Positions 3 through 22,351 of a stretch of 23,663 bases of DNA are shown piece by piece (position 1 is the first letter of the stretch; every line of letters starts with the position of its first letter). A program made the position numbers and the translations under genes. The notes beneath the pieces were generated by a model. The model did no database searches and was not told the origin of the DNA. It was given only the letters and a program-made list of their open reading frames with translations. The DNA is from Salpingoeca rosetta. Taxonomy: Eukaryota; Opisthokonta; Choanoflagellata; Craspedida; Salpingoecidae. The stretch is taken from assembly GCF_000188695.1 (NCBI RefSeq), contig NW_004754932.1, positions 244,098-267,760 of the forward strand. Reading direction: 5' to 3'.

Positions 3-1304
3 CAGGACGCCCAGTGCAGCCCTCGCAAGACGTGCCTCCTCATCCCAGACGGTACCCAGGGCACCGCCTCCCTGGACACCGTCCTCGACTGCGGCCTCCC
101 CTACATCATGAACAACGCAAGCAAGGCCATCTTCACCACAGCCGCAACCTGCGTTGTCGAGGAGTGTGACCTCACCCCCATCCTGGAAGGCATCACCTGC
201 GGCTGCCCAGACGGCTACGAGGGCGATTTCTGCGAGACGGACATCAACGAGTGCGATCCAGACCCGTGCTTGAACGGCGGCACGTGCACAGACCTGATTG
301 GCGCCTTCTTCTGCGCCTGCCCCACCGGCTTTGATGGCGACCGCTGCCAGACACGCCTCAACTGCACCACAGAAAGCATTGCCAACATGTGCCAGAACAA
401 CGCCACGTGTGTGAGTGAGCCCCGGGCTTGCCACCGCTACTGCGAGCCTTCGATCGACGCATGCGCGGCAAACGCAGACTGCAGTGGCCCGCAGGATGCC
501 ACCTTACTTTGCCTGCAGGCAGTTGCCCGCGCCGGGACAGACCAGTGCGACGAGGCCTGCCTTCGCGACTGTGCCCAGCGGTTTAGCACCCAGGCTGGCG
601 AGGCGCTCTTCGAAGATGCGCTGCAGTGCATTGTCGACGACTGCCCGCTCCTGCCGGATTTCCGCTGCCAGTGCCCCACTGGGTTTGAGGGCGTCTACTG
701 CGAAACAAACCCCGATGACTGCGTGGAGGGTATGTGCCTCAACGGCGGCACGTGCGTGGACGGCGTCAACACGGCCACCTGCACCTGCCCTGCCAGCTAC
801 ACGGGCCCCCGGTGCGAGACCCTCCTCAGCTGCGAAGCCGACATGTGCCAGAACAACAGCACTTGCACAGACCTGTTTGACGTCCCCGCCGCCATCGCCT
901 CGTGCTCGGAGACATGCGACAACGTCTTCTCCGCGTGTCTGCAAGACGACGCAGGCGCCCTCTCTTGCTCCTCTGCATTCAACTGCCTGCTTGTGCCCCT
1001 CTCAGACCAGGAGCACACGTGCGAGCTCGACTGTGTGCAGGAGTGCGGCAAGCTTCAGCAAGGCACCACCAGCCGGCAGCTCTTTGACGCCGCCGCAGAG
1101 TGCGTGTTTGTCAACTGCGTGCCAAACCTCGTGCCGTCCGGGTTCAAGTGCACCTGCCCCGCTGGCTTCACGGGCGACCTGTGCGACGAAGACATCAACG
1201 AGTGCGACCCAAACCCATGCTCCAATGGTGGCACGTGCCTCAACCTGCTGGCAGCTTACGACTGCGTCTGCCCTTCCACCACCTGGGGCGACAACTGCCA
1301 GAAC
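3..1304 (+). other. EGF array with alternating plain and insertion-bearing EGF domains
   Basis: Plain EGF domains lie at about 240-356, 714-824 and 1191-1301. The first and last begin DINECDP and carry the calcium-binding and Asp/Asn-hydroxylation style pattern C-x-[DN]-x4-[FY]-x-C-x-C. Between them are EGF domains whose first half ([16 protein letters not shown]) is separated from the second half ([22 protein letters not shown]) by roughly 75-90 residues of extra Cys-rich sequence. The inserts share the pairs [18 protein letters not shown] and [27 protein letters not shown]. The fragment at 3-236 is the end of a third insertion-bearing EGF, so the array continues upstream of the window. EGF arrays act in extracellular adhesion or ligand binding. 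The ligand is unknown. Confidence 0.88.
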
Positions 1305-4300
1305 CTGTGCGACGTTTGCAACACCACCGCCGCCGCCGCTGCCGCCGCCACCCAGTACCAGAAGCAGGCGTGTACGCCCACCAGCAACACCGTGTGTGCG
1401 CCACTCACCCCCTGCCGCGTTGGCGAATACGAAGCCGTGGCGCCCACGCCAACCTCAGATAGGGTGTGCGAGCCCATCCCGGTTGCCCGCTGGTTCCCTC
1501 CCACCACCGTCAGCGTGTCAACGCCTGCGCTCCCTGCATCAACCACTGGCCTGACGCGGCTCTCCGCCACCTCCACGCGCGCCGCCTTTGGCTTCCTCCT
1601 TGGCGGACCCGTCGACACGCCCGCCACCATTTCCGCCAGCATTGGCCCCAGCACTGCCTCAGAGCAGGTGCGTGCGGCAAGGGAGCCGGCCTCGTCCGTG
1701 ACCGGCCAGCTGCTCTCCCCGACACGCGTCTACTACGACAAGCCGTACGTGCATGCGGTAATTCAGGTGCGCGACGCGGCACAGAACACCCGCGTGCAGT
1801 CCAACACGGCTGTCTTCGTGGAGGCCACCGCCCCTGCAGCCCTGCGCGTGCTGCAGGATGTCAGCCCACGGCAAACGTGCGTCGTCGATAGCACCTCCGG
1901 CGCGTGCACGGTCCAGCTCGCCCTCCCGCAGGCGTGGTTTGCTGCGCAGGCAGAGGAAACCGTCTCCATCGCCTTTGGCATCGATGGCACCAGCAACGGC
2001 GTTCTCGCCGATGTGGTGCTCGTTCCGGGTGCAGATCGCGTCGTGCTTGCGTCAGAGGTCGTCGTTGAGCTGCCGACGCACACGCTCTTTCCAAGCAAAA
2101 CCTTCACCGCGCCCATCCGCGCCAAGAACGACATTGAGCTCGCCCTGTACCGCCTCAGCGTCGACATTGATCAGACGGGCCTCGCCTTTGACGCGGACAG
2201 CCCCGCGACCATCTCCGACCGCTGGTTGCACACGGTGGAGGCCACGCCCACGGGCATCGTCATCGTCGGCACGCTTGCGGAGGAAAACGCCGCGCCAGAC
2301 GTGGACCTGCTGGCCACACTCAACCTGCGTGTGCTGGAAACCACCGCCACCACCCAGCCGGACGCTGCCCAGTTCAGCATCAACGTCACCGTGGAGGCGC
2401 TCGGCAACGTGCGCAGCGAACCCGTCGCCGTGCTCGGTCGCCCAACCCCAACTTATGCCACACACAGCCACCGCCAGCAACAGCAGGGCGTGCAGTTTGG
2501 GCAGGTGCACGTTCAGCCAAACGCCCTCGTCACTGTCATGCCGTACGCTGGGGCAGGAGACTTGCCCAACGTGGCGCGCCTCACTGGCCAGCGCATCTCG
2601 CATGCACTGACGGTCTTGGGCGCGTATGCCGACGGCACAACGGCTGCGGTGAGCACATCATCAGGCCTGCTGTCCTGCTCCACGCTCAACCCCGCCACGC
2701 TAAAGGTGTTTGCAGACTGCAGCGCAGTCTACTTTGATGGCGATGAGACGGCCGGCGCCGACGGCACCAGCATTGCCGTCCGCGTGATTGGCCTCGGCGT
2801 GCTCGTGCCCGTCACCTTCCGCGTGTGGCTGCCGACCGCTGCTGAGCTGACAACGGACGCGGTGGGGCCAAACCTGCAAGCTGTCGCCGGCCTGCGCCAC
2901 CCCGCCCGCAGCTGTCAGCCCGTGTACCAGCAGACACAGCTCTTCTGCCCATGCACGTTTTCAACGCGGCTGCTGGACGGCAGCACGATCACCCGCCAAG
3001 TGGATGTCCTTCCCCTTGTCCTCGCTCACCTGCAACAGACCAACGCCAGCGTGGCGAGCGTGAGCGATACCGGCGTGGTGGAAGGCCTGCTGCCTGGCAC
3101 CACCACCATCTCCTTGCCTGCCCCCTCCATCGTGAGTGCAGCCACCGTCACCGTTGGACAGGGCGCAGCAGTGGGTGTGCGTCGCATTGACGCCTACCCA
3201 GTCGCAGGTCTCGCACTCAGCTCCCTTCCCAGTAGGGTGGACCGCCTTGCAGCACACACCGTTGACATTGGCATCCTCTCCAACATCACGGTCGAGTTTG
3301 ACACCGCGTACGTGACGGTGCGAGCCGTGCTCAACGACACAACCACGCTGCCGCTGGACGGGTTCCCTGGCCTGAACATCACCTCCCTTGACGCGAGGGT
3401 TGCGCGCGTGCTGGCCAACCCGGCCACACCTCAGCGCTTCGAGGCCGTTGGCACAGGGTCTGGTGACATCCTTCGCGTCGACCTGTCTTCCACAGAAGCT
3501 TGCGATGCGGCCAACACTGTCATTGCTTCTGGCCTTAGCCCGGTGTTCATCTCCTTGCCGCAGCCGACAGCGCTTGTGGTACACAGCTTCAAGAGCACCC
3601 TTGCAGAGGCAAATGACGTGGTTGCGCAACTCACGTCGTCCTCAAAGCGCATCTCCACCAGCACCACACTGGGGCTGCGGCTGGTGTTCCCGGCGTACGT
3701 GACAGATGCCAGCACGGATGCGCGCGTGGTGCTGGACACGAGCAAGAGCGGTGGCCTGTTCACGGCGCAGCGGCGCGCCAGCGATGGCCGCGTCCAGGTC
3801 ACCAGCAACAGCGCCGGCCTCACGGGCACAGGCACCCTGACCATCGGCTTCAGCCACGTGAGCGTGACGCACAGCATCAACATCACCGTTGTCGGCACGG
3901 CGAGCGTGGAGGCGCGGCTGCGGCCGTGGCCCGCGTACGCCGGCTCCCGTGGTGTGGAGGTGCACCAGCTGCAGCAATACGCAGACACGGGGGTGTGGCA
4001 GGAGGCTGTGCTGGAGACGGTGCTGGTGCTGACGAGCGGCGAGCGCGTTGACGTGAGCACGGACGGGGCTGTGGTGAGCTACTCCGTGGTTGCTGGAAGC
4101 GATGTGGTGCGTGTGAGCAGCGGCACGGTTGTGTCGTACACGGGTGCTGGCACGGCGTTTGGGAACGCGAGCGTGGAGGCGCGCGTGGCTGGCGCAGTGA
4201 GCCAGTTTGTGGCGCGGGCCGACGTTGCTGCCACCAACACGTCTGTGCGTGTTGTTGGGTTTGAGGGCCTGACGCTTGCGGGGACGGTGGTTGGTGTGGT

Positions 4301-7300
4301 GGGCCACGTGTCACGGGGCCAGGTGGACGTTGTGCTGAGCGACGGGCGCAAGTACGCTGACCTGATTGATGTGAGCGGGAGCGGGAGCGCACGCATTGGT
4401 GGGCTGGTGGCGTTCTCTGTGAAGGGCGACAGCAGCGGGGCCGTTGCGGTTGACGGCGCGAGTGGCGCAGTGACGCTGCTTGGGAATAGCGCTGTTGAGC
4501 TTGAGTATGTGGTGCGGGCCACGGTAGGAGGCGCGATGGGGAGCCGGATGTTTGCTGCGAACCTGCAAGCCGGGGATGGGGATGTTGATCTGGGGTCGCT
4601 GTCTGGGGTGCCGGTGCCGGCACAGCAGCCGGGCGCCACATTCGACGTGCCCGTGCGCCTCACCAGCACAGCCAAGGTGGTGGCTGGTCTGCGCTTGGAG
4701 GTCACCTATCCACCCGATGTGCTCGAGTACGTGAGTGCGACACAGGGCTCCGCCTATGGCCAAGGCCTTTTCCTGGTCACCCCCAACGATCCCCCTGGCG
4801 TGCTCCTCTTTGGCGGGACGACAGACGGCGTGTCTGGCTCCTCGCAGGAAGTGGCCGTGCTTCGCTTCCGCGTTGCGGATGACGCTGCTCCGCCTGCCCT
4901 CATCACACTCGGCGGCACCATCATCGAGCTCATTGACGATGCATCCCTCGACATTGTGGCGCCTGACACCGCGTTTGTTGCTGGCAACGTCTCCATGGTC
5001 ATCCTCGACGGCAACCTTCGTCGTCGCCGCAGCGCTGCTGGCCTTGACGTCAGCGACAGCGATGACGTGGGCTGGAGCCGGAGCCTGCTCCCTGTTGTTG
5101 CGCCACGTGAGCGCCACCGCCGCGCTGGCGATGCCCCGTGCACGGGGCTGCCGTGCGCTGGTGGCCGCCATTTGGGCGATGCGAACGAGGACTGCTGCTT
5201 CACGCTCGCAGATGTGCGCTTCGTGCAATCCTTCCTGGCCAAGCGCACGTTTGACCCCAGCTTTGGCAGCGACTACAGCCGAGACCGCTATGAACAGATG
5301 GACGCCAACATCAACGGGCGTGTGGATGACTTTGATCCCGTGTACCTGATCCGCGTCCTCTTCAAGCAGCTGCACTTCATCACCAACGTGACGGTGACGC
5401 CGGTGGCGCAGTCGCCTGCCTCCGGAGCAGATGCAGCCGTGGCGTGCCAGCTCAGGATCTCAGCGACGCCCCTGGGTGCTGGCAACACCGTCCCCGATCC
5501 AGAGCGCACGTTCCTGTTCTTCGACGTGGAATCACGCGACACGGGCCTGCGCCCGGCCCTTGACAATAGCGCAGTCACCCGTGGTCAAGTGGTCGTCGCC
5601 GACAAGGGTGCGCCAACCTTCAACGGCGCCATCTTCCAAGCTGAGGCGGCGGTTCCCTCAGGCGGTGATGACATGGGAGACAACGAAACACCCGTGCCAC
5701 ACAGCGTAGACATGTTCACCAGCCTTGACCTCGGTGACGTTGGCCTCACCATCCTGCAGGTGACGGTGGATCAGAGCAGCCCGCCGCAGACATCAGACTC
5801 GCGTGCTGTGCGCATCTCCAACAGCACCGGCGCCGTGGAGTTTGGGAGTCCCTTCATGTATCAGCTGCAGCTTGGACCCGCCACCTCCTACACGTTTGAC
5901 CTGACGACACCATACCACCCGCTCCAGCTGTTTGCCAACCCCACGTCCTCGCTCGAGTGCTTTGTCAGCCTTCCGGCCTGCGACACGAACGTGTTCTTCG
6001 AGCTTGACCCGCCAACGCTGAGCAGCGCACGCGTGTGCCAGCGCGTGCGTGAGTGCAACACGACTACGCAGTACGAGACAACCGCGCCCACGCCCACATC
6101 CGATCGCGACTGTGCCCGCATCCGCGGCCCGTGTGAGCCGGGCACATTCCAGGACGCCGCGCCCACACCAACAAGTGACCGCGTGTGTGACAACTGCACC
6201 GTGTGCACAAGCGACATGTACACGAAGACAGCCTGCACCATCTTGCAGGACACGGTTTGCGCCAACCTGACCGCGTGCCAGCCAGGCGAAGTGGAGCTAG
6301 TCCTGCCCACGGCCACGTCAGATCGCGAGTGCGGGCGCATACCAGACGCGACATTGCCGCTCGCCACCGTCAACAGCAACACGGGTCTGGGCTACCTCCT
6401 TGAGCAACAGCTGCCAACGGTGACGCCGGCAGGCACACGCGGGCAAGTGGGTGTGTTTGTCGATGCACTCAACGCCGACAACGGTAACCTGCGCGCTGTG
6501 CTTGGCGACTCCGAGGCGCAGGCGGCGTTTACCCTCCAGCGCAGCCCCGCTGTCAGCGTGGAAGCGCAAGTGGCCACGCAGCGGCTGTGGCACGATGCGC
6601 CCCAGGTCAACGTGCACCTTGTTGTGCGGGATGCCTTGCACTCAACAAACACGCAGCAGACGCAAGTGTCCATCGCAGTCACGCCGGTCGACTTCACTTC
6701 GTCCGTGCCGGCTGTCACGGCATCCTGCACCACGCGCAGCGCCTGCTGGGCGCGGGTGTCGGTGCCACAGGAGTGGTTCTCCAACACCACAGAGCGCGCT
6801 GTGCAAGTGACGTATGGGCTTGGCTCCACACCCACACAGCAGGTGTCGTCGCCGCCACTGCCGCTCTCCACAGCGCCGGCTTCCTCTCCATTGATGGCCA
6901 CTGGCGCTGCTGGGAGCGGTGGCGTGTGGTTCAGTGCACCGCACAGGCCCGTGCGACCCGGCGCAACGTTCCAGGTGCCCGTGTATGCGCAGGGCGGTGA
7001 CTACCCCGTGAACACGTGGCAGGTCCGCTGCAGCGTGGCTGACGATGCAGACAAGCTGGTCATCACGCAGATGAGCGTGGACAGCGCGTGGGATGGACAA
7101 GTGCAAGGTGAGGGCACCAGCACCGTTGTCGGCAACGGCCTGCCACTCGGCGACCGCCCCGAGCTTGCGCCAGAGCAAGAGCTCCTGTTCACCCTCACGG
7201 TTGCGGTGCAGCCACAGGACGCATGGACACAGGGCGCCAACGCAAGCGCCACAACAGCGGCGGAGGTGGCTCTCAGCTGTACGGTGTTGAGCTTGTTCAA

Positions 7301-10300
7301 CGTGGAGAAGCAGCAGCCACTCGTGACGCCAGTGGCTGCCGTGTCATCGGGCCGCGATGGCGTGCGTGTGGGCGACGCGAGTGTGTTCCTCGCGCCAGCA
7401 CAGACCGTTGGCTTTGCTGCCATGATCCCTGCCGCCCAACTGGTGAACAGCGCCGTCTTGACGGGCGAAGCCGTGAACTCGCCAGTGTCGCTCGTTGCAT
7501 TTGATGAGGACAGCACACCTATCACTGTGTCCAACAACGACGGCGACGTCGTGGCGTGTGCTTCCCAGGATACGGATGTCGTCGGTGTGTCGTCTGATTG
7601 CACGCGTGCTCAGCTGTTGGGCGTCGAGGCCCGTGGCTCTGCCAGCGCAATGCTCACCTTCACGTGGAGGGACCTGCGGGCCACAGCGGCTGTTGCAGTT
7701 TGGTACCCGCGCCTTCCGCTCTTCCTGAACATCACGGACACCACCATGAACCGCGTGTCAGCACCTGGTGCGTGCGATGCTTGGTACCAGAGCACCCGTC
7801 CCCGCGTGACAACCGTGCTTGGGCTTGCTTCGTCCAACGCCACCACAACGAGCGTAGACGTTGACGTGACGCACCTGGTGCAGCTGGTGAGCAGCAACAC
7901 AACAATTGTGGGCGTGACGGAAGCGTTTGGCGCCACCACCCTGGTCGGGCGCAGCGCTGGCGCTGTTACCGTTGTTGCTACGGATGCATCTGGAAACGGC
8001 GTGTCCAACAGCGTGGCTGTGAGCGCCGTGGACAGCCCGCGCGCGTTCATTGCAAACGTCCGCTCTGCAGTGGTTGCTGATCTGAGCATTGCCAGCGTGC
8101 CTGCCACGGTTGCGACAGGCGCCGATGCCTCAGCTGCCTTTGCCTACGCCGTCGTGGCCACGCAGCAGCTGACGCGCGAGAAGCAGTTTGCCGACGTTGC
8201 GCTTGAGCTCGTGTTCACCGACGGGCACACGCAGCCGCTGGCGGAGTCGCAGGTGAACCTGCGATCCCTGGCGCCGGGCGCGATTCGCGTGTACACAAAC
8301 ACGAGCGAGCGCACTTCCACCACGCAGGACATCCAGGTCCTCTCGTCCATTGTAGGCGAGGCCGTGGAGGCAGACATTGTGGACACGTCCGAATGCGGGC
8401 GGCTGTTTGGCGACGACAACGTGCTGCTGACACACACCATCAACGTGGACGCGCAGCTGCCACTGCCTGTGGATGTGGAGGTGACGGCGAGCGCGCGCAA
8501 GATTGCCTCGACGCAGGACCCTGCCGGGGCCTTGCTTGCCACGGAAACGACGCTGAGCGTGGCGCTGGTGTTTGCTGATGGCCGCAAGCAGGTGATGACC
8601 ACAGACGCACGCACGCGATACACAGTCCTGCCCGCCACCGGCGAGGGTATGGGTGCTCAGGCCAGTGAGCTGCTGACGGTGGCGCAGCGGAGCGACGACA
8701 CCGTGGTCGCCTTGGCCGCGTCGCCTGCCCTGGCCGGCGTGGCGCGCGTGTTCGTCAACTTCACGCACGTCAACGTGACTGGGGAAGTGAGCGTGGAGGT
8801 GGTCCGAGCACAGGGCGTGTCCCTGGCCATCCGCCCTTACCCGTCGTTCTCGGGCTCCAGCCAGACCACCGTGACGCGCTTGGCGCTGCTCGCCAACACC
8901 GATGTGTATCAGCAGGCGCAGCTGGAGACGCGCGTGGCCCTGAGCGATGGCACGTCGCAGGACGTGAGCACACACGCACTTGTGGAGTACGGCGCTGAGG
9001 CAGACCCGGCGAACGCAAACACAACTGGCGTTCTCGTCGTGGGAGGAGTCAGCCCGAACCGCGTGCGGGTGCAGGAGGACGGTGTCGCCGCAGTATCGCT
9101 CCCATTCAACGCCAATGTGACGGCCGTGTTTGCGGGCGCCCTTGTGGCAACGCCGCAGCCACTCGCCGTGACAGGCGAGCGTACATTTGTCACAGCCATC
9201 ACCGACCTGTCCTTCCCATCCACCCTCACGGGGATCCAAAATGCCACCACCGCCACAATCCAGGCTGCGGTCACCTTTGATGACAACACGCAGCTGCGCC
9301 GGTCGCACCTGTACGCCAGCGGCGTGCTGCAGGTGCCCGGTTTGCTCTCCTTCTCCACGTCTCGGCCTGCTGTTGCCAGCGTAGACGCCAGCTCAGGCGT
9401 GGTTGCGCTGCACACCAACTTCCACTCGGCCGTGGAGTACACGGTACATGCTGCTGGGTCCAACGGCAGTGACGTGGTTGCCAGCGACACCTTCTTCTGC
9501 AACTTGCAGCCTGTCTCAGGGGACGTGGACTTGGGCAGGACCGCTGGCAGCCCGCTGGGCGCGCAGCGCGTGGGAGACGAGTTTGACGTGGATGTCCGCG
9601 TGCGCAGCGACACCGCGTTCACCACGCTCCAGCTCAACGTGCTCTTTGATGAGCGCGCCCTGCAGCCCATCAGCGTGCAGCAAGGAAGCCAGCTCAGCGG
9701 CATCTTCTCATCGAACATTGCCATCCCCGGCACGGTTGTGATTGGTGCCTCTGTGACGGGGCTCTCCGGCACGGTTGTCGTGGCCTCCGTTCGCTTCAGG
9801 GCGCTGCAAAGCGGCGTGTGGGCTGTGTACGGCGAGACAAACACGCTGGCAGATGCTTCCGCCACGTCGCTCATTGCCAACCCAGATGACCCTCGGTTCA
9901 CCGCAGGCGACATTCAAGTTGCTGTCGTTGACAACAACGCGCGTCGCAGGCGCAGCGTGCTGCATGCCGAAGCTGTTGCGAGCCCTCAAGCACAGCAACA
10001 GCAGCAGCAGCAGGCACGCGCGCGTCGTGCCACTGAGGTGTGCCAGCCCGCGTGCGCTGTGGACGAGTGGCCCTGTGCAACGTGCCCGAATGGGAGGCAG
10101 TTTGGCGACGCAAACGGCGACTGCTGCTTTGATGCCAACGACGTCACGTTTGTTCGCCAGCTGCTCAACCAGATCCAGGGTGACACGAGCCACCCCGCCT
10201 TCACTTCCCTGGCACCCTTCCAGCAAGCTGCCGCTGATGCTGACGGCAACACCAACGTCAACACGGAGGACGCGTTTTACATGCTGCAGGTCACCACCTT

Positions 10301-13300
10301 TGTGTTCAGCTTCTTCACACACGTGCAAGTCCAGCCTGTGAGCGCTGCCACAGACTGCGAGGTGCTGCTGCGCACGGGGCTGCTCTCCATTGGCGCTGGC
10401 CGCGTTGCCGAGGCGCCGGCACCGCCCAACACCTACGTGCTGTTTGACGTGGAGAGCCGCGACACCAACCTCCGCGCTGTCTTGCTCAACGCCAACTTCT
10501 CTGCTGGCGAGCTCGTGGCCTTCAAGCCCTCCCCACACAACGGCGCCATCTTGCGCGCCGCGTACGAGGGCGATGGCTCGTATGCCCTCTCGTTTGCGGC
10601 CTCGCACAACGTCTCGGGTATGGGCGTGAGCCTGTTCCAGGCTACCATCGCCGCTGATGGTGTGAGCAACCTGTTCACCGGCGATGCAGACCGCCGTGTT
10701 ACGCAGGAGTTCCCGCCGTTTGCGCTGGAGTTTGACGTTGGCGACAACAGCGGCCTGCACGGCGCCGTGGATGTGCAGTCATACAACCCGCTCGTGAGCG
10801 TGACCGTCAATGCCACGACTGAGGCGTGCCTGCCCCCAACCAAGTGCCCCAGCAACCACTACCGCACATCCCCGCTCGGCGTGCAGCCACTCACTTGCGA
10901 ACCTTACACGGTGTGCGCCGATGACGAGGTGCTCGTTCGCAACGGAACAGAGACAACGAATGTTGAGTGTGAGCTGCGCGCGTTCTTCCCACCATACCAG
11001 GTTGCATCCAGCATCGATGCCCTGCTCTTCCTCAGCGCAGCCCACAACAGCACCACAGACACGAACGGCAATAGCGGACCCAATGTTGCTGCTGCTGCTG
11101 CAACCAGCATCGCATCTGTTGCGCGGGCGGCCCAGCTGCCCACGTTCCCGAGCGCAAACCGCTACAGGACGGTTGGCTTTGCAGAGCAGTTTGGCACCAA
11201 CCCCTTCCCGCCTGCGCTTGATGTGCATGCACGCGTTGGTGCTGACCAGGAGGGCGGCGATGATGCGAGCGCAGCGCTGTCGGTGCCTTGCACAACCACT
11301 GAGCGTGTTGCACCGGTTGCGACGATTGGCGCCGTGGTGCTGGACGAACGAAGCGTGTACGAGGACAGCGCTGTTGTGCGCGTGTACTGCACTGCGTTTG
11401 CGGCGAACGGCCGAAGCGGCGACGGCGTGGAGCCCGTTGAAATAACCGCAGTTGTGACCAGCGCAAACAGCTCCGCCGATGCACCGCTGCCAGTGTCTGC
11501 GACGTGCACTGCTTCCCCAGCAACAGGCGGTGCATGCATTGCAGAGGTTGCCATCCCTTCAGCGTGGTTCTCCGCGGACAGCGATGCGATGGACGTGGAC
11601 GTGACTGTGACTGCTGATGCGGTCAACGCCACAGCTGTGTACCTTCCCAGCGCGGCCACCATTGTTCCGACGACCGCGTCCTTGGATCTGTCCAACGACG
11701 CCATGCTGGTGCTGCCGCAGCAGCGGCTCGCACCAGGCGAGACCGCCGCGATGGCGCTGAATGCCAACACGGGCGCGTCTGTTGGCGCGTTTGCGTTCAA
11801 GGTGTCCGTGTCTGGTGCGATGTTGGAGGTGACAGGTGCGCAGGTGAGCTCCCGCTTCACAGCACAGGTGACCCAGCTTGCCCCGGACGAGTTGGGCATC
11901 GTCGGGTACCTCCCACCCGGTTCCCCCTTCGTCACATCAGAGGCTGGCACCGAAAGCATTGCCTCCATCACCGTTCGCGCCATTGATCGGCAGCGCAACG
12001 TCCAGGTTGCGGGTGCTGTGGCGCTCGAGATTGTCTCCCTCGCCAGCGCACTGCAGCAGTCTGTGCGGCCCCGCGGTGAGGCAACGCCAACGGTGGGCCT
12101 CACGTTTGATCGTGACGGCGTGCGTGCTGGTGCAGGTGCCCTTTACATCGCCTCGCCACAGCCTGTCGCCGTCATGGCACGAGCTTCCCGCTACACGTTG
12201 TGGAACAAGCTGCCACTCGCTGCGGCTGGCGACCAGAACGCTGCGGAACAGACTGCCACGACCATTGCCCTCTACAACGTGTTGGCAGATGGAACACTCG
12301 CCGAACGGGACAACAACGACAACAACGACGACGCCAGCAATGCCACTGCTTCGACCATCACGTGCACAGCAACCAATGGTGACTCCGTGAAGCTTGACGT
12401 TGCCACGTGTCGCCGCCTGCTGTTTACGCAGAACACGTCAGCGCCCAGCCCCGATGTGGTGGTCAACATGGCGCTCACAGGTGATGACTCGGATGAACAA
12501 CAACCCGTGCCAATCTTGAACCCGGCGCTTCGCTTCAGCGTGTGGCAGATGGTGGATGGCCCCCACGTACTGCTGGACGACAGCGTGCTGAACACGCTGC
12601 CAGTGTCTCTGGCAACATGCTCCGACGTATCAGCAGCGCCCGTGTTCCAACGCACGCGTGTGCGGGTGGCTGCCTCCTTCTCGGACGGCGAGGAATCCAC
12701 ACCACTTGCAGACGTGACGACATTTGTTCACACGCGCATTCGCAGTACCGACGCAGCTGTGGCGACTGTATCCGTGTCTAGCGTGAGCGGAGACGCAACC
12801 TTCATCGCCGTTTACGCACAAGGTGCATCCCTGGGCACCACTGACATGGTGCTGGACAGCGCGTTGGGCGCGGGGCAACCAACATCGCCTGTGGCAGCCA
12901 CCGCACCGCTGCGTGTGGTCGCAGATCCAGTCAACATCACACGCTTGTATGTCAGTGCAACGCAAGAGCTGGCACTGGACACCGCGTCACCTGCCGCGTG
13001 CGGGGCAACAAGCCTCATCGAAGCGCGCAGCAAGGCAGGGCTGGACCGAGAGGGCCAGCGCGCTGTGCTGTCTGCGTGGATGCGCACGAGTGATGACCAG
13101 CTCGTGGACGTGTCAGCAGCTCCATTTGTGGTCTTCGCCAGCAACAACACCAACATCCTCGATGTGCAAGGCAGTGCGGCGGTGGCAAGTGCCGCCAGCG
13201 TTGGTTCGGACTCGCCCATTGCAGTGAATGCGCTGCTGTTCCCGACTGCGTGCACAAACACCTCATCCAGCGCCATTTTGGCCACCGGCGAGACGCTTGT

Positions 13301-16300
13301 GCCCGTGTTTATTCCACAGCCAACGGGCATCGAGATCACCCTTGGCGATGCGGAGCTCACACTCGAAGGTGATCCGCTCACGCGCGTGCAAGCCGGCAGT
13401 AGCAGCAGCAGGCGGCCAACCAGCACCACGCTGGGGCTGCGGCTGGTGTTCCCGGCGTACGTGACAGATGCCAGCACGGATGCGCGCGTGGTGCTGGACA
13501 CGAGCAAGAGCGGTGGCCTGTTCACGGCGCAGCGGCGCGCCAGCGATGGCCGCGTCCAGGTCACCACCAACAGCGCCGGCCTCACGGGCACAGGCACCCT
13601 GACCATCGGCTTCAGCCACGTGAGCGTGACGCACAGCATCAACATCACCGTTGTCGGCACGGCGAGCGTGGAGGCGCGGCTGCGGCCGTGGCCCGCGTAC
13701 GCCGGCTCCCGTGGTGTGGAGGTGCACCAGCTGCAGCAATACGCAGACACGGGGGTGTGGCAGGAGGCTGTGCTGGAGACGGTGCTGGTGCTGACGAGCG
13801 GCGAGCGCGTTGACGTGAGCACGGACGGGGCTGTGGTGAGCTACTCCGTGGTTGCTGGAAGCGATGTGGTGCGTGTGAGCAGCGGCACGGTTGTGTCGTA
13901 CACGGGTGCTGGCACGGCGTTTGGGAACGCGAGCGTGGAGGCGCGCGTGGCTGGCGCAGTGAGCCAGTTTGTGGCGCGGGCCGACGTTGCTGCCACCAAC
14001 ACGTCTGTGCGTGTTGTTGGGTTTGAGGGCCTGACGCTTGCGGGGACGGTGGTTGGTGTGGTGGGCCACGTGTCACGGGGCCAGGTGGACGTTGTGCTGA
14101 GCGACGGGCGCAAGTACGCTGACCTGATTGATGTGAGCGGGAGCGGGAGCGCACGCATTGGTGGGCTGGTGGCGTTCTCTGTGAGGGGCGACAGCAGCGG
14201 GGCCGTTGCGGTTGACGGCGCGAGTGGCGCAGTGACGCTGCTTGGGAACAGCGCTGTTGAGCTTGAGTATGTGGTGCGGGCCACGGTAGGAGGCGCGATG
14301 GGGAGCCGGATGTTTGCTGCGAACCTGCAAGCCGGGGATGGGGATGTTGATCTCGGGTCGCTGTCTGGGGTGCCGGTGCCGGCACAGCAGCCGGGCGCCA
14401 CATTCGACGTGCCCGTGCGCGTCAGCGCTGGTGCCAGTGTGCTGGGAGCCCTTGATCTCGATATTGTGTACGACCCCACCATCCTTCAGGCGGTCTCCAT
14501 TGCACAAACGTCGTCCTTGTGGGAAGGCGGCGTGTTTGTGGCTTCTCTCAACAGCCCACCGGGCGTGGCATCCTTTGGCGGCCTGTTGCAGAAGAATGCT
14601 GCGGTTGGCGTCCTGACCGTCGCCACGCTCCGCTTCCGCGTTCTTGCGCCTGAGAATGGTGCCAACTCTACTTCTGGATGCATCACCGCCATTCACGGCG
14701 TTGTGAACACCATCGCTGATGCCTCATCACAGCAGCTGACCATTGGCGCGCCCACACCGCGTGCTATTGTTGCTGGCAGCGTCGATGTTGTTATCGGCAC
14801 GGCTGCAAGCAACGCCACCACCACACCATGCACGGCCAGCACCCCCGGTCGTCGTCGTCGTCGTCGTGACAGTGCCGTCGACACCACGGCGACTGCTGTT
14901 GCTGCTGCCGCTGCTGATGGTCGTGTTGCCCGTGACAGCGAGTCACTGCTGCGTGCACGGCGTGCAACGCCATGCGACCCTGCATCGTGCCCAGAGCCGC
15001 GCATGCTGGGTGATGTGCTGTGCGATTGCGTGTTTGACATCAAGGACGCGGGCGCCCTGCTTCGCTTCCTTGGCCGCGAGCTTGTGGATCCCGCCGTGAA
15101 CCGGTCTTCGCTGTCGGCAGACGAGAAGCGCGTCATGGACGCCAATGTCAATGGTCACATTGATGTGCTGGATGTGTCCTTCCTTGCAGCCGTCAACTTT
15201 GACCTGCTGCGCTTCGTGTCTGCGCCGCGCGTGCGAGTGCTGCCGTCCCCGGACGGCTGCCTGCTGGAGGTGTCTGTGCTCGCGCTCACTGCGTCGCACC
15301 AAGCTGCGAGTCCAACCGACACTGCAATCGTGTTCGACATTGAGCCAGCAGCGGGTTCCGGCGACGCACAGCGAGCCAACTGGACACTCGCGGAGCCACT
15401 GGCTGGAGATCTGCTGTCACCGGGGAAACCAGACGGATACGCGGGCGCGTGGATTCAGGCCGCTGTCCCCTTTGCCGTTGCGCCGTCGCTGTATCGCACG
15501 GTGATTCCCTTGGGTGACACGCCACCGACCAACATCAGCGGGGGCGTCTCGGTTGTGCAGCTGACCGTGTCGACGGAGGGCGCATTCTCCCCTGACCGGC
15601 TCCTGTTTATGACCCGTCACGTGGACGATGCCCCTGCTTATGACACCGCGCTGGATTCGCAGCTCGCCAACGTCACCTTTGCCGCTGACAGCAACGGTCA
15701 AGCACGGCAGGGCGCCCACGTGGCGGCTGCCGTATCAAAGCCCCAGGGCTACTCGCCGCTGGTGGGCGTGGTGCAAAACACGAGCGTGTGTGATCAACCC
15801 GGCAGCGTGGACGAGAAGCCCCTGACAACGTCGTTCCTGCTGCCGCTGGACTATGACGCAATTGTGGGCAATGCCACGCGCCTTGCTGCGCTGGAGGCGG
15901 CTGTCCTGGACGGCCTGTGGCGGTTTGCGGGGGTGCCGCCGTCGCTGGTGGTGCGCATCACATTCTCGCGCGGCAGCGTGGGCGTGGATGTCGTGCACGC
16001 TGACGGCCGCTCTGCAGACCAAACCGCGTATGCGGTGCAGCAGGACCAGATGAAGGTCAACTTTGAAGGCTCGCAGGTTGCTGCGTCACCAATGCCGTCT
16101 GTGACCACGACCGCTGGGCCGGGAACAACAGCGCCGCCTGCGACTGGTACGACGACGACGACGATAACCGCCGCGTCGACATCGTCAACGGTGTCGCTGG
16201 CGCCACCGGGAGCGGAGGGGTCCACTGCCCTCATTGTTCCCATTGTCCCTGCCGTGGTTGGCGGCGTGGTGCTCATCATGCTGGTTGTGCTGCTGCTGGT

Positions 16301-17586
16301 GCATCGCCGGAAGCAGCGACGCAAGCGGGATGTGGAGCTGCAGGCGCACGAGGACGCACTTCGGCGCGAGCAGCAGTTTGGCCACATTGTCGCATCGCCC
16401 ACCAAGGACCGCCACAGCCTGTACCTGGGCGTGGCCACTGGCCTGGACCACCACGAGGTGCCAATGAACCCGCTCCACGAGGACAATGTGCAGCAGGACG
16501 TGGGCCACTATCGCGGACTGGATGGTGCTGCTGGCCGCCTGCCGAGCGTTGGGCGGGCCATGCGCTTGCCTGCGCGCAGCACGGTGTCGCCCATGCAGTC
16601 CCCAAGAGGCAGCAGGGCTGGCACCTCTTCCGTATCATCCACCCCCGGGCACTCGAAGGAGCAAGAACAACAACAGCAGAAGCAACGAGGAAGCGAGGCT
16701 GCAAGCTCGTTCTCGCCGCTGGAGTCGCCCACACGGCGGCCGTCTGCGTGGGAGTTTGCATCGAACCGGGAGGTGGCATCTGGCATTGCGCGCCTGACGG
16801 AAGGCCTCGTGTACGGGATCAACCGGGGAGCACTGCAGCTGCAGCGCAACATCTCTGGTGGCGATTCCCAGCTGGACGCAACCACAGATTTCATCGACCT
16901 GAGCGGCAGCTTGCCTGGCGATGCGCGCACGGATGTGTTTGATTTCCCCTCCGAGGCTGGCGAGACAACGACTGACCCGCGCACTGGCGGGATTATGCTC
17001 CGTGATGGCGCGGCCACCACATACGCACGCCTGCTCAACCCTGCGCCTCAGCCCATGTATCAACAGCAGCATGGCCAGGGGGAGGAGGTGAAATATGCCG
17101 AGTTGTCGCTTGTGGACACGGAATCCTACACTTTTGACGTCCAGTACCTGGATCACCGCACCCACGTCCACACGGGTGCGTTGTTTGTCGTTGTGGGGGC
17201 ATGTTGTGGAGGTGGGAGGCGTTAGGGGGAGGGGGGTCGTGAGGCCGCACGGTGTGACTGTACGTCCCGCACTTGCGTGTGCGTGTGCGTGTGTATGCAC
17301 TAGTGTTCCGTTGCGATTCCGCTTTCACGTCATTTACTTTGCCTTTTCATTCGCTTGAACCCCTGCCACCGTTTGTTCACCTTCACATTCACATTCACCC
17401 TCAAATTCACATTCACACACACAACCCCCCCCCCCTACAGAGGTGCACCGGGCGTGCTGGAAGGAGCTGCAGGAGACGTTTATGAGCATTGTGCATCACA
17501 CCGTCACCCCGCAAGCGGCGTTCCTCACCCTCACGCCTGAGGCGCTCAGGATCAAAGGGCAGCCAGAGGAGCCGGTACGCTGCTTG

Positions 17587-17671
<85 letters not shown>

Positions 17672-19558
17672 TGTATGTTGTGGAGGCATGCCCCATGTGT
17701 ATGTTGCATTTCGTGGGTCACAGCAAGTTGTACTCATCAAATTTACTACGTTTTCGTTGCACCCGTTTGGACTGCAGTTCTGCAGCTGTGCCCTGACATC
17801 CATTTGCGAATGCCGTGTGGAGACAGCACACGTCTTCATCGGTGTAGAAGATGCTGTGGACCCCAGCTTGATTGCATGCCATGTCATTCGCATGACAGAT
17901 GACGACTCGGTACGACCGTTTTTGCTCTGTGTTTGTGCCCTGTCTGTGTGTTTGCATGCTGTGTGGCTGTGTGTTTGTGTACTCTGCGATGACTCTCTTC
18001 CTTTTTTGTTTTCTTTGGCAGCCGTTGCTCTGACAACACCTGTTGCTCACATAACCTCACTGGAACTCACACACCCTCCCCCTCCCCCCTCAAAACAAAC
18101 AAAAAAAAAAATACCCCCCGTCTTCCATTTTCCATTTGCCTGCAGGCTCAGCGGCTGTTTGGCTTGTTGGCGATTGCGTGCCACAAGCGGTATCGTGAGC
18201 TGAAGGGCAGCGAGCTGCTGCGAGCAGAGCCCGTCTTCTCGTCCATTGCAGTGGATCCCAACGCATCGCTCGTTGACACGAGTCAGGTCACTGTTGACAT
18301 CACGGACGACGACGCCTGGGCAGCGCCCACGTTTGACGACGATGACGATGATGAAGAGCGCCACGGCCAGCAGCAGCGTGACGGCGGGTCGTCATCGGAC
18401 AGCGACACGGACGAGGATGACTTTGACGGCGTGATTCGCGCGCTCCGCGCTGCTGACGAGCTGAAGCGACGAGAGGGTGACCAGCACGCCGCTGAGGCAC
18501 AGAGCCGCCAGCCAACGCAGGCGTTTGTGACAAGCACCCCTGTTGCGACGCGCGGTGTTGGGTTGGAGCAGCACGGCCAGTTTGAAGAGTCGTCCATCAT
18601 GTCCAGCTCGCGTGACGCCAGACTGGAGACGGTGATGGAGGAGGACGAGGAGGACGAGGAAGAAGCACGGCGAGCCGCTGCAGAACGCAAACGCCAGCGC
18701 GAGGCGGCGTACACGTCGTCTGTGGGCACGGCGGCGGAGCCGACACGCTCGCAGCACGTGGACTCGGTGCATGCTGGCACAGCGGCGACAGGCAGCAGCC
18801 AGCAACCCGAGGATGACGATGATGACGTGTGGAACCTGGACGAAGTGGCAGAACTTGCGCTGGCAACAGACGACATGTCGCACCCGTCTGTCACTGGCGC
18901 CAAGCCAGGCTACCTCGACGTGTCCCCACAGCAGCAGCAACAGCAGATGCAGCACGCAACTGGTGACAAGCGTGGGTATTTGGATGTGGCGCCAAAACCA
19001 GGGGCTGCGACGACACAGCGCCCGGGTTACCTGGACGTGACACCCAAAGCACAGCAAAAGCGCGGGTACTTGGACGTTGCACCAGACCAGCAGCATGTGC
19101 GGGCTGACACTTCACCAGGGTACGTGCACGTGCAGCCGCAATCGCCCGCCACACCTTCGTCCTCGTCCACCGGGCTGCAGACACACGTGCCGCTGTATGC
19201 GGATGTGTCTGGACTGCACGACAGCCGGCGCAGTGAAGAGCCAGCGTACATCAACGTGAGCGTGGCCATGCCGGAACACCACCAGCATCAGCAACAGCGT
19301 CACCCTGACCAGCCATCGTTCAACCGAAGCGGCGACTTCCCGTTTACACCAGAGATCAGACCGCCGCCGGGCTTTGAACAGCAACAGCAACAGCAGCAGC
19401 ACGAGTCCACACCCATGGCACCGTCGCAGCGCGCAGCACAGCACCACCACCATGGTGGTGGTGGTTATGGCGGTGGCCATCACCACAGGCGGGATATGCA
19501 TGGTGAAGACGAGGAGGAGGATATGAACGACTTGAGAGAGATGTTGAGGGACATGTAG
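3..19558 (+). CDS. Giant TMEM132-like multidomain transmembrane receptor with cytoplasmic PTB domain and Tyr-motif array (5' partial)
   Basis: The coding exons are <3-17175, 17441-17574, 17778-17909 and 18146-19558, giving about 6283 residues with no start in the window. The frame is open to base 3, so the ATG at 108 is internal. The order is EGF array, three modules of TNFR-like/TMEM132-like/cohesin/dockerin domains, membrane-proximal domain, Thr/Ser stalk, transmembrane helix, tail, PTB and a seven-Tyr array. The apparent stop at 17223-17225 lies inside intron 1. Splicing at G|GTGCGT (17175/17176) to TACAG|AG (17440/17441) keeps phase and turns FDVQYLD plus the downstream exons into a full PTB fold. 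By family knowledge the TMEM132 core suggests cell adhesion, and the PTB and Tyr motifs suggest coupling to tyrosine-kinase signalling. Both roles are inferred. The exon joins rest on phase, splice consensus and domain continuity, without transcript evidence. Confidence 0.88.
1305..1476 (+). other. TNFR-type cysteine repeats, block 1
   Basis: The residues [27 protein letters not shown] and [10 protein letters not shown] follow the spacing of TNFR/NGFR cysteine-rich repeats. An Ala-rich run (seven Ala, from GCC/GCT codons) expands the first loop. The same [10 protein letters not shown] signature recurs before module 2 (6033-6350), and a more diverged version occurs before module 3 (10824-10995). 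The block therefore marks the start of each large module and probably acts as an extended spacer or ligand-binding stalk. This is a structural call from Cys spacing. No ligand is implied. Confidence 0.75.
1477..3597 (+). other. Module 1: TMEM132-like core (beta domain, cohesin-like domain, three BIG/Ig-like domains)
   Basis: A beta domain ends with two Cys and LPQAWF (about 1877-1950), matching the TMEM132 signature of a Cys pair followed by LPxxWF. A cohesin-like domain follows at about 2070-2415. The strand FRVWLP (2817-2834) precedes a domain with a Cys and YQ pair (SCQPVYQQ) and a [13 protein letters not shown] turn, as in the FxVWxP to C..YQ to GxxPG order of TMEM132 BIG domains. The third BIG-like domain ends with a conserved Cys ([15 protein letters not shown], about 3491-3535), equivalent to the late Cys of TMEM132. 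The family assignment is from remembered motifs. A profile search with TMEM132 HMMs would settle it. Confidence 0.78.
3658..4658 (+). repeat. 1001-bp intragenic repeat, copy A (partner 13420-14420)
   Basis: This tract aligns without gaps to 13420-14420 at a constant offset of 9762 bp. I count five differences, at 3668, 3805, 4423, 4487 and 4592. Two change the protein (Ser to Thr and Lys to Arg) and three are silent. Identity is therefore about 99.5 percent, while flanking sequence on both sides diverges abruptly. It encodes the three BIG-like domains that link the TMEM132 core to the second cohesin of modules 1 and 3. The equivalent stretch of module 2 (about 8495-9515) is clearly homologous but much diverged. 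Confidence 0.97.
4576..5018 (+). other. Module 1 second cohesin-like domain
   Basis: The block opens with GDVDLG and continues as a PGATFDVPV strand, a beta core ([16 protein letters not shown]), PPGVLLFGG and a VAVLRFRV strand. This is the typical order of type I cohesin strands: xxPGxxxxVPV, then xxxxxYDxxxLxxxx, then a closing hydrophobic strand. Matching domains open with GDVDLG in module 2 (about 9520-9940) and module 3 (about 14340-14800). The near-identical tract shared with module 3 ends inside the first strand, so the two cohesins diverge from there on. Confidence 0.75.
5019..5126 (+). other. Module 1 linker with two furin-type sites
   Basis: The linker holds RRRR|S at 5019-5033 and RHRR|A at 5112-5126, both fitting the R-x-[RK]-R proprotein-convertase consensus. 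They lie between the cohesin-like and dockerin-like domains in an acidic, low-complexity, probably exposed segment. Cleavage here would split the extracellular chain. The same pair of sites occurs in modules 2 and 3. Confidence 0.75.
5127..5960 (+). other. Module 1 dockerin-like domain and following beta domain
   Basis: Two EF-hand-like calcium loops, [14 protein letters not shown] and [13 protein letters not shown], are separated by a helix, as in type I dockerins. The unusual adjacent CysCys sits in the first loop. The domain spans about 5139-5383. The beta domain that follows contains [18 protein letters not shown] and NGAIFQA, and recurs after the other two dockerins ([11 protein letters not shown] and NGAILRA in module 2, FDIEPAAG in module 3). 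I do not recognise this beta domain as a named family. Confidence 0.78.
6033..6350 (+). other. TNFR-type cysteine repeats, block 2
   Basis: About four short Cys repeats carry [22 protein letters not shown] and [10 protein letters not shown], plus a CDNCTVC to [10 protein letters not shown] unit. This is the longest of the three TNFR-like blocks and opens module 2. Confidence 0.8.
6351..8490 (+). other. Module 2: TMEM132-like core
   Basis: This is the clearest TMEM132-like copy. It has a Cys pair with VPQEWF (about 6725-6780), a cohesin-like domain from [12 protein letters not shown] (about 6945 onward), then [14 protein letters not shown] with the following C..WYQ and [11 protein letters not shown] (about 7700-7890), a [14 protein letters not shown] turn, and a late Cys in [12 protein letters not shown]. 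By family knowledge, VWxPxLPLxIxxxD, the C..YQ pair, DVTxLV and GxxxGxTxVxV are the hallmarks of animal TMEM132 BIG domains. The animal family normally has a single such ectodomain, whereas this protein has three. Confidence 0.82.
8491..9519 (+). other. Module 2 additional BIG-like domains (diverged equivalent of the 1-kb repeat)
   Basis: The segment runs from [15 protein letters not shown] through [46 protein letters not shown] and [13 protein letters not shown]. It lines up domain for domain with 3658-4575 and 13420-14337 ([43 protein letters not shown]). It shows ordinary divergence, unlike the near-identity of the other two copies. Confidence 0.75.
9520..10320 (+). other. Module 2 second cohesin-like domain, furin-type linker and dockerin-like domain
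   Basis: The cohesin-like part opens [10 protein letters not shown] and includes FDVDVRV and [16 protein letters not shown]. The linker holds RRRR|S at 9942-9956 and RARR|A at 10017-10031, separated by a Gln-rich run. The dockerin-like part has [14 protein letters not shown] and [13 protein letters not shown] as calcium loops, with the Asp/Asn positions intact in both. Order and spacing match modules 1 and 3. Confidence 0.78.
10321..10995 (+). other. Module 2 post-dockerin beta domain and TNFR-like block 3
   Basis: The beta domain contains [18 protein letters not shown] and NGAILRAAY. It is followed at about 10824-10995 by a shortened, degenerate TNFR-type block ([35 protein letters not shown]). 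The APTPTSDR signature has decayed here, and this block opens module 3. Confidence 0.68.
10996..13419 (+). other. Module 3: TMEM132-like core
   Basis: Signature elements are a Cys pair with IPSAWF (about 11503-11570), a cohesin-like domain from [16 protein letters not shown] (about 11706-12045), [17 protein letters not shown] with a Cys and [15 protein letters not shown] (about 12532-12690), and a late Cys in [15 protein letters not shown] (about 13245). The VWxP motif is degenerate (VWQMVDGP). An Asn/Asp run from AAC/GAC repeats (about 12309-12342) expands one loop. This is the most diverged TMEM132-like copy outside the repeated 1-kb tract. Confidence 0.7.
13420..14420 (+). repeat. 1001-bp intragenic repeat, copy B (partner 3658-4658)
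   Basis: This is the gap-free partner of 3658-4658, with differences at 13430, 13567, 14185, 14249 and 14354. The match starts inside a Ser/Thr-rich stretch just before TTLGLRLVF and ends after FDVPVR, in frame at both ends. That keeps the protein open and preserves module order. Confidence 0.97.
14340..15204 (+). other. Module 3 second cohesin-like domain, Arg-rich furin-type linker and dockerin-like domain
   Basis: The cohesin-like part contains [16 protein letters not shown] and PPGVASFGG. The linker carries six consecutive CGT Arg codons (14850-14867), followed by Ala/Asp-rich sequence and RARR|A at 14952-14966. In the dockerin-like part the first loop is [13 protein letters not shown], lacking the Asn seen in modules 1 and 2, while the second is intact ([13 protein letters not shown]). 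The first calcium site may therefore be weakened. Confidence 0.75.
15205..15800 (+). other. Module 3 post-dockerin beta domain
   Basis: It aligns in position with the domains after dockerins 1 and 2: a strand with [11 protein letters not shown], then [22 protein letters not shown] and VSVVQLTVS. It is more diverged (FDIEPAAG in place of FDVESRDT). No TNFR-type block follows; the chain goes on to the membrane-proximal domain. Confidence 0.6.
15810..16220 (+). other. Membrane-proximal alpha/beta (SEA-like) domain and Thr/Ser-rich stalk
   Basis: About 75 residues with [19 protein letters not shown], a helix ending [20 protein letters not shown], and VDVVHADG have the strand-helix-strand pattern of small membrane-proximal domains seen in many protist receptors, loosely like SEA. 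A stalk of Thr/Ser/Pro (about 16090-16205, including a run of Thr from ACG repeats) then leads to the membrane. Such stalks are usually O-glycosylated. The domain name is tentative. Confidence 0.55.
16221..16304 (+). other. Single transmembrane helix
   Basis: A hydrophobic run of about 26 residues ([13 protein letters not shown] then [12 protein letters not shown]) is followed at once by HRRKQRRKR, a strong positive stop-transfer signal. This places the EGF-to-stalk part outside and everything downstream in the cytoplasm (type I topology). Confidence 0.95.
16305..17126 (+). other. Cytoplasmic tail before the PTB domain
   Basis: A disordered Ser/Gln/basic tail holds several Tyr motifs: SLYLGV, HYRGLDG, TYARLL and VKYAEL (17088-17105). 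The last fits the ITIM consensus [SIVL]-x-Y-x-x-[ILV], and SLYLGV fits it loosely. YLGV, YARL and YAEL also fit the endocytic Yxx-hydrophobic pattern. I see no NPxY in the tail, so the neighbouring PTB domain probably binds another protein or a lipid. Confidence 0.7.
17176..17440 (+). other. Intron 1 of the receptor gene (contains an in-frame stop)
   Basis: The donor is G|GTGCGT and the acceptor is a C-run followed by TACAG. It is 265 bp long and interrupts a codon after its first base. It contains the stop at 17223-17225 that ends the unspliced frame. If retained, the protein would end about 16 residues past the donor and lack the PTB domain and the Tyr array. Confidence 0.85.
17575..17777 (+). 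other. Intron 2 of the receptor gene
   Basis: The donor is CCG|GTACGC and the acceptor is GGACTGCAG|TTC, phase 0, 203 bp. The PTB alignment supports the acceptor at 17777. An in-frame alternative at 17723 would insert 18 extra residues before [10 protein letters not shown]. Confidence 0.78.
17591..17670 (+). repeat. (TG)40 microsatellite inside intron 2
   Basis: This is an 80-bp perfect TG run. It produces long spurious Cys/Val reading frames on the plus strand and Thr/His frames on the minus strand. Confidence 0.99.
17910..18145 (+). other. Intron 3 of the receptor gene
   Basis: The donor is TCG|GTACGA and the acceptor is TTTGCCTGCAG|GCT, phase 0, 236 bp, with T-rich, C-rich and poly-A stretches before the acceptor. 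It separates the last PTB strand from the C-terminal PTB helix. Confidence 0.85.
18223..18900 (+). other. Acidic and coiled linker of the receptor tail
   Basis: Clusters of Asp/Glu ([48 protein letters not shown]) alternate with Ala/Arg-rich probable helices. It is likely disordered, with short coiled segments. No enzymatic domain is visible. It separates the PTB domain from the Tyr array. Confidence 0.7.
18905..19261 (+). other. Seven-copy tyrosine motif array (YLDV-type, plus YADV and YINV)
   Basis: Tyr codons at 18911, 18977, 19028, 19067, 19121, 19196 and 19247 sit in [42 protein letters not shown] and AYINVSV. Spacing is 13 to 25 residues, and Gln-rich or Pro/Ser linkers separate the copies. 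All have Val three residues after Tyr, and five have Pro at +5. This resembles multi-site SH2 docking tails. YINV also fits the Grb2-type pY-x-N rule. That the tyrosines are phosphorylated is inference. Confidence 0.82.
19262..19558 (+). other. Low-complexity C-terminus of the receptor
   Basis: It contains Gln/His-rich runs, RPPPGFEQ, a [15 protein letters not shown] stretch, and an acidic end ([14 protein letters not shown]). The TAG stop is at 19556-19558. No recognised domain is present. Confidence 0.75.
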
Positions 19559-22247: not shown

Positions 22248-22276
22248 CCGTCCTGCGTGTGGTGTGGTGTGTATTG

Positions 22277-22329
22277 TGTGGGCTCCGAGTGGGCTTTGAG
22301 TGGGCTCCGAGTGGGCTCTGTGTGGGTGG
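22277..22329. repeat. 11-bp GAGTGGGCTCC tandem repeat
   Basis: About five units occur in a row (variants GGGCTCC, GGGCTTT, GGGCTCT). The in-frame extension of the E2 upstream of 22247 reads through this repeat, an argument against that extension being real protein. Confidence 0.9.
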
Positions 22330-22351
22330 GTTGAGAGGCGAGGACGCACCA

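Follow-up and report, generated by a model that had tools for sequence, protein, structure and literature searches.

The window analysed here, a stretch of 23,663 nucleotides from the choanoflagellate Salpingoeca rosetta (NCBI RefSeq contig NW_004754932.1, positions 244,098 to 267,760; C2:244098-267760 in the 54.4-Mb, 49-contig genome that we searched), carries the gene for a giant single-pass adhesin of the TMEM132/coherin type, each of whose three modules ends in a cohesin, a pair of furin-type basic sites and a dockerin-like domain. We consider it probable that a furin-type convertase excises the peptide connecting cohesin and dockerin, and that the pieces are then held together by calcium-dependent cohesin–dockerin pairing in cis; cutting, binding, release and purpose are inferred from the sequence and from structural models. 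A preliminary description of this DNA had reported the arrangement in every module, which Pfam, our own profiles and a site scan confirmed, and had named six cut positions (5030, 5123, 9953, 10028, 14867 and 14963), all of which were matched exactly by the sites below.

3..17225, + strand: open reading frame of the giant single-pass adhesin, 5' end open, 5,740 codons
4578..5003, + strand: module 1 cohesin (PF00963, E 3.4e-13)
5019..5030, + strand: site 1a, furin-type, RRRR then S, strict R-x-[KR]-R
5112..5123, + strand: site 1b, furin-type, RHRR then A, strict R-x-[KR]-R
5166..5381, + strand: module 1 dockerin with two F-hand calcium loops (own profile 80.3 bits; no Pfam match)
9519..9926, + strand: module 2 cohesin (PF00963, E 2e-07; own profile 113.0 bits)
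9942..9953, + strand: site 2a, furin-type, RRRR then S, strict R-x-[KR]-R
10017..10028, + strand: site 2b, furin-type, RARR then A, strict R-x-[KR]-R
10095..10313, + strand: module 2 dockerin (own profile 71.2 bits; Dockerin_1 17.1 bits, below cut-off)
14340..14795, + strand: module 3 cohesin (PF00963, E 6.8e-11; own profile 141.6 bits)
14850..14867, + strand: site 3a, furin-type, RRRRRR then D, strict R-x-[KR]-R
14952..14963, + strand: site 3b, furin-type, RARR then A, strict R-x-[KR]-R
15000..15218, + strand: module 3 dockerin (own profile 72.0 bits; no Pfam match)

The sites, each R-x-[KR]-R (strict) in a predicted disordered segment on the extracellular side, are concentrated in the linkers between cohesin and dockerin. 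The window protein has 6 strict sites in 178 linker residues, two per linker, whereas its remaining 5,562 residues contain a single one; this seventh site, RRKR at 16317, lies directly behind the transmembrane stretch. From composition alone, approximately 0.86 strict sites would be expected over residues 1 to 5,650. Synonymous arginine codons differ between sites (CGT CGT CGC CGC; CGT CGC AGG CGC; CGT six times), indicating that the sites are not recent copies of one another at the DNA level. A 1,006-base block that modules 1 and 3 have in common at 99.4% identity (3657-4662 versus 13419-14424), the product of either recent duplication or gene conversion, ends inside the cohesin (at 4662 and 14424), so the cohesin remainder, linker and dockerin stay module-specific in sequence; this would suit a matched cohesin–dockerin pair, without proving one. 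DNA-level copying of the sites was rejected on both grounds, the codon differences and the end of the block before the sites. Chance origin was rejected on the composition expectation and on the linker shuffling and site densities described below.

Paralogues in the same genome were gathered through Pfam matches to cohesin (15), dockerin (14) and the fourth TMEM132 immunoglobulin (Ig) domain, Ig4 (17), a selection blind to basic sites; the analysis covered 13 of the 14 dockerin matches (all but C1:2152489, an 80-residue frame) and the neighbourhoods of part of the 17 Ig4 matches. Frames around the cohesin matches yielded 14 non-redundant cohesin–dockerin pairs, the window's three included, with a strict site in all 14 linkers and two in 12; the exceptions were C17, with one, and C3b, with a single run of eight arginines. 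Further loci had paired sites: RRRR and RVRR at L029 (C30), which also has cadherin-like repeats by eye; RRRR twice at L048 (C27); RRRR and RARR in front of the dockerin (E 1.7e-07) at L027 (C4), with an extra strict site inside that dockerin; and RRRR twice at the near-identical L031 and L032 (C17/C41), where both domain matches are weak (E 0.002-0.003 for the cohesin, E 0.06 for the dockerin). With L031 and L032 counted as one, 19 own-genome units result, 18 with a strict site and 16 with two. A 3-kb stretch beside an Ig4 match at C4:1816300 contained no cohesin, dockerin or post-dockerin domain, and C6, behind its third Ig4, had cadherin-like repeats by eye and not a unit. L027, L031 and L032 have paired sites before the dockerin though the Ig4 search lists no match nearby. 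Arginine-rich sites (RRRRRR-D, then RHRR or RSRR) also occur outside recognised units, in the C8 frame 1698683-1719214 and in the N-terminal region of the homologue P0003, and look alike by eye in the two. Two locus pairs on separate contigs are near-identical (C3:1860537/C16:1326615 and C17:328616/C41:186942), representing either duplicated genes or unmerged haplotypes.

Most homologues elsewhere retained the sites while their linkers diverged. Seven proteins (P0003-P0009; 27-34% identity) were returned when residues 1500-1960 of the reading frame served as the protein query; in them, 22 of 22 pairs had a strict site and 17 had two. Across the window, the own-genome paralogues and these seven homologues, all 37 cohesins were followed by a dockerin, and every one of the 37 linkers contained a strict site; two were present in 30, with merged runs counted as one throughout (31 if touching matches were counted apart). 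A second search, from P0008, returned 39 proteins, 33 of them new (P0010-P0042), with 89 cohesins and 89 dockerins forming 89 pairs in cis. Their linkers had a strict site in 76 of 89 cases and two in 53; dibasic (K/R-R) sites numbered at least one in 87 and at least two in 79. In the third module of the 23 three-module proteins of this set, two dibasic sites were kept in 22 and two strict sites in 3, the first site usually having shrunk to a K-R pair. The PF00028 cadherin domain is listed for all 33 proteins, and two that we scanned had 15 and 10 cadherin stretches, which fits coherins. A third search, with a 10-sequence alignment against 7,993 candidates among proteins similar in length to the unit, found no homologue at E 0.001.

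Strict sites were 194-fold (37-linker set) and 798-fold (89-linker set) denser in linkers than in the rest of the same proteins, and after shuffling an average of 5.8 of the 37 linkers contained a site (maximum 13). In the 10-sequence alignment of chosen pieces (26-35% identity to the first), site arginines made up 5 of the 30 invariant columns. The first cut falls 6-12 residues past the end of the cohesin profile in 28 of 35 non-redundant linkers, linker length ranges from 22 to 71 residues (126 pairs), and the peptide between cuts measures 9-46 residues in the 28 non-redundant two-cut linkers, or 6 in one P0026 module. The first cut is followed by S, E, D, Q, A, G or N (35 linkers) and the last by A, Q, N, D or T (28 linkers), residues expected after convertase sites. 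Selection on the paired sites, proposed earlier from the three window modules, is strongly supported by these sequence comparisons, since the sites persist in paralogues and in many remote homologues while linkers diverge.

The cohesins score 50.4, 31.7 and 43.0 bits against PF00963 in modules 1 to 3, all over the cut-off of 24.1, and an AlphaFold2 model of module 1 bore out the beta-sandwich of a type-I-like cohesin and also showed a dockerin. The window dockerins are dockerin-like by their calcium loops and by resemblance to solved dockerins rather than by the Pfam rule: a 10-sequence profile of the unit matched solved bacterial dockerins (4fl4_A, E 5e-4; 4dh2_B, E 0.0027), and the PF00404 cut-off was reached or passed at four other places in the genome (C4, C23, C30 and C8). 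Of the four residues at positions 1 and 12 of the two calcium loops, three are aspartate in all 126 dockerins; the fourth is aspartate in 123 and asparagine in 3. Cysteine occupies position 6 of the first calcium loop in 122 of 126, and in many relatives a C-x-x-P-P-C-like motif can be made out by eye after the second site and ahead of the dockerin (5124-5166 in the window), raising a possible disulphide staple.

Throughout the 126 pairs examined, each cohesin is accompanied by a dockerin in cis, and structural models are compatible with their docking. AlphaFold2 modelled the module 1 unit (461 amino acids, 19 sequences) with a mean predicted local distance difference test score (pLDDT) of 79.3 and a predicted template-modelling score (pTM) of 0.82; the longest stretch with pLDDT below 50 (150-187) spanned the loop between R148-R151 and R179-R182, with further short ones at 401-405, 422-429 and 433-435. 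Cohesin, linker and dockerin alone (272 amino acids, 16 sequences) gave a pLDDT of 80.4 (72.6-80.4 in five models), a pTM of 0.73 and a single stretch below 50 (150-186). We estimate that a freely moving dockerin would give this construct a pTM of about 0.55, so the observed value is compatible with a fixed arrangement of the two domains and a flexible loop between them. The cohesin–dockerin distance correlation with the neighbouring domain removed (partial r 0.58, versus 0.20 for the cohesin and that domain; 118 modules kept of 123 complete ones, from 126 pairs) lends weak support to docking in cis. Overall, pairing at one to one, kept calcium loops and predicted models support the earlier proposal that each cohesin would dock onto the dockerin of its own module.

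The rest of the gene has the layout of a membrane-anchored adhesin, with these further features.

2535..3506, + strand: module 1 TMEM132-type Ig domains 4, 5 and 6 (PF16070 E 2.8e-13; PF23486 and PF23487 below cut-off)
5370..5960, + strand: post-dockerin beta domain 1 (own profile 141.1 bits; AlphaFold2 strands; no Pfam match)
7416..7715, + strand: module 2 TMEM132 Ig domain 4 (PF16070 E 1.2e-19)
10308..10829, + strand: post-dockerin beta domain 2 (own profile 129.0 bits)
15207..15782, + strand: post-dockerin beta domain 3 (own profile 101.0 bits)
16233..16295, + strand: transmembrane stretch (hydropathy 2.95, maximum of the reading frame; PF21314 TM-juxtamembrane, E 5.9e-4, below cut-off)

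Pfam identified EGF repeats, TMEM132 Ig domains, TNFR repeats and the three cohesins. PF16070, the fourth Ig domain and first BIG domain, scored 50.1 bits in module 1 and 70.5 bits in module 2 (cut-off 27) and was not found by Pfam in module 3. Behind it in module 1 follow, in order, PF23486 (E 3.9e-5) and PF23487 (E 2.6e-5), both under curated cut-offs and weaker still in modules 2 and 3. PF23039, the cohesin-like domain that precedes the Ig domains in the TMEM132 family, gave no match at E 1 in three segments, where a beta-rich stretch is visible by eye. The beta domain behind the dockerin, approximately 175-195 residues long and matched by our profile in 123 of 126 pairs, has no family name in Pfam for dockerin 1. 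The cohesin, dockerin and beta-domain profiles started from the three modules of the window and were then iterated over the sequence set. A single 21-residue stretch (hydropathy 2.95 versus 1.73 for the next best) forms the only C-terminal membrane span, C-terminal to all six basic sites. The window is preceded by 51,035 bases (C2:193063-244097) that read N, leaving the gene 5'-incomplete; a 23,021-amino-acid frame from the genome search runs through these bases and was rejected as an artefact, since a frame crossing them gives no real protein length.

Several points weigh against the proposed cutting and docking. Both protein searches scored the linker plus its flanks and only among their best 960 and 918 candidates, so that near relatives would be expected to share the sites and the remote ones are the informative cases. 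Thirteen of the 89 linkers in the wider set have no strict site: all three in P0042 and P0030, two of three in P0012 and P0039, and one each in P0028, P0040 and P0041. The C5 locus L046 has RR twice only, with its dockerin cut by the locus end, and at L027 no recognised cohesin precedes the sites and dockerin. Conservation of the sites in relatives thus held for most linkers and failed at these 13 and at C5, and a wider 19-sequence alignment had no invariant site arginine. PF00404 gave the module 2 dockerin 17.1 bits against a cut-off of 22.9, with no match in modules 1 and 3. The models were judged by pLDDT, best-model pTM and secondary structure rather than by interface, and AlphaFold2 may be recalling bacterial cohesin–dockerin pairs; the fold comparison (VIA list) covers model residues 1-148, not the post-dockerin beta domain. 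The partial correlation between dockerin and beta domain was equally high (0.58), and gene-neighbour position could be the source of both correlations. The overall interpretation offered earlier is supported in part, strongly for selection on the sites and also for cis docking, with cutting, binding and shedding standing as inferred.

Cutting might instead free cohesin and dockerin for pairing in trans, swapping domains between chains to form polymers or cell–cell contacts. We regard this as unlikely, though as the best placed of the alternatives. Cleavage-activated polymerisation occurs in other extracellular proteins, the co-occurrence of cohesin and dockerin also suits a homotypic polymer, and AlphaFold2 models of a single chain cannot separate cis from swapped pairing. 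The cohesin–dockerin pairs of bacterial cellulosomes join separate proteins (PMC6030884). Against this, linkers as short as those observed would hold the cis partner at very high local concentration before cutting. Plain shedding by cutting is improbable: a furin site in dystroglycan liberates its N-terminal domain (PMC4582122), and the genome encodes a candidate convertase, but shedding would not require all 126 dockerins to retain the calcium-loop residues, and the pTM values favour a fixed arrangement. It is more improbable still that the basic stretches go uncut and bind polyanions (glycosaminoglycans or cell-surface polysaccharide) or serve a structural role. In favour of this, the runs of six to eight arginines in the C3b, P0003 and window module 3 linkers exceed protease needs; against it, the second site mostly takes the compact form R-x-R-R with A, Q or N next, the sites are two rather than one basic patch, and relaxed forms retain K/R-R in 87 of 89 linkers.

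We return to cutting followed by docking in cis as the probable reading. A protease P domain matched the genome at C1, C11 and C18, and at C11 the C-terminal end of a subtilase (E 2.9e-10) lies ahead of it (E 1.6e-19). A subtilase followed by a P domain is the furin/kexin layout, making C11 a candidate convertase by sequence. In the proposed mechanism, each module end would form a cleavable joint of cohesin, arginine-rich site, short disordered peptide, second arginine-rich site, dockerin and beta domain. A furin-type proprotein convertase would cut both sites en route to the surface, freeing the connecting peptide, and the cohesin would stay clamped to the dockerin of its own module through calcium-dependent pairing. 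The mature receptor would be a chain of segments joined without covalent bonds and held at the membrane by its last dockerin piece, which, with the membrane span C-terminal to all three modules, would remain in the membrane carrying the rest. On loss of calcium or under force, a joint could open and the outer modules be released. Bacterial cohesin–dockerin pairs are among the strongest receptor–ligand contacts reported, with rupture forces above 120 pN (PMC6030884).

These features place the window protein among known adhesins and set it apart from them. The TMEM132 architecture has been tied to choanoflagellate and sponge coherins, lefftyrins and hedglings (PMC6030884; Sanchez-Pulido and Ponting 2017). 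Like the TMEM132 family, the window protein combines serial TMEM132 Ig domains with a single C-terminal membrane span; unlike in that family, its module occurs several times over, and every copy closes with a classical cohesin, paired basic sites and a dockerin. Coherins have been named for choanoflagellates and Porifera (PMC6030884, PMC8164589), and coherin cadherins are also named in PMC5097364. They too are adhesion proteins with cohesins; cadherin domains are listed for P0005-P0042, which have the window's unit, and C30 and C6 in the own genome have cadherin-like repeats by eye. Unlike them, the window gene has no cadherin repeat that Pfam could find in its 5,740 amino acids, its 5' part reading N. 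A cleavable joint in coherin cadherins is not described in the portions of these accounts that are available. Whereas bacterial type I cohesin–dockerin pairs join separate molecules, the pair here lies in cis in one chain, with protease sites between, in a eukaryotic adhesin.

Notch, cut at S1, is a furin-processed receptor. As in Notch and dystroglycan (PMC4582122 for the latter), a secretory-path precursor would be cut and the pieces would stay associated or be released; unlike in those receptors, the holding pair would be cohesin and dockerin, two cuts would excise a peptide and one chain would contain several joints. A term search of the main text of PMC6030884 found neither furin nor cleav- nor proteoly-, and among open-access titles and abstract openings no cleavable cohesin–dockerin joint was found; an earlier notice in Peer et al. 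2009 or Nichols et al. 2012 is possible.

Outside the gene, the window contains a 46-copy TG dinucleotide repeat 3' of its end (17591-17682) and, on the minus strand at 20196-22349, a frame that encodes a ubiquitin-conjugating enzyme domain (PF00179, E 4e-19). The same genome encodes a Hedgehog-signal domain; according to PMC4054682, choanoflagellate hedglings were the only known non-metazoan proteins with such a domain before the S. rosetta genome.

More tentatively, and with rather less than even confidence, we suggest that the joint between a cohesin and its own dockerin, cut and then clamped, could be an ancient and general building block of giant adhesins, shared by a choanoflagellate and the coherin-type proteins of probable animals and also present in other proteins of this genome, with each joint freeing a peptide on maturation and then acting as a calcium- and force-gated coupling that may detach modules singly. 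The proposed cutting and docking in cis itself offers a testable answer to why choanoflagellate and sponge adhesins carry cohesins: their partner would be the dockerin in the same chain, and the protease, if the proposal is true, would turn the cohesin–dockerin link from covalent to calcium-dependent. Such a joint would be a new kind among processed receptors, placed at the root of cell adhesion in animals. It would also recast the TMEM132 family of humans, which has the Ig domains in common with the window protein and is without a detectable dockerin partner, dockerin homologues not being detectable in vertebrates (PMC6030884).

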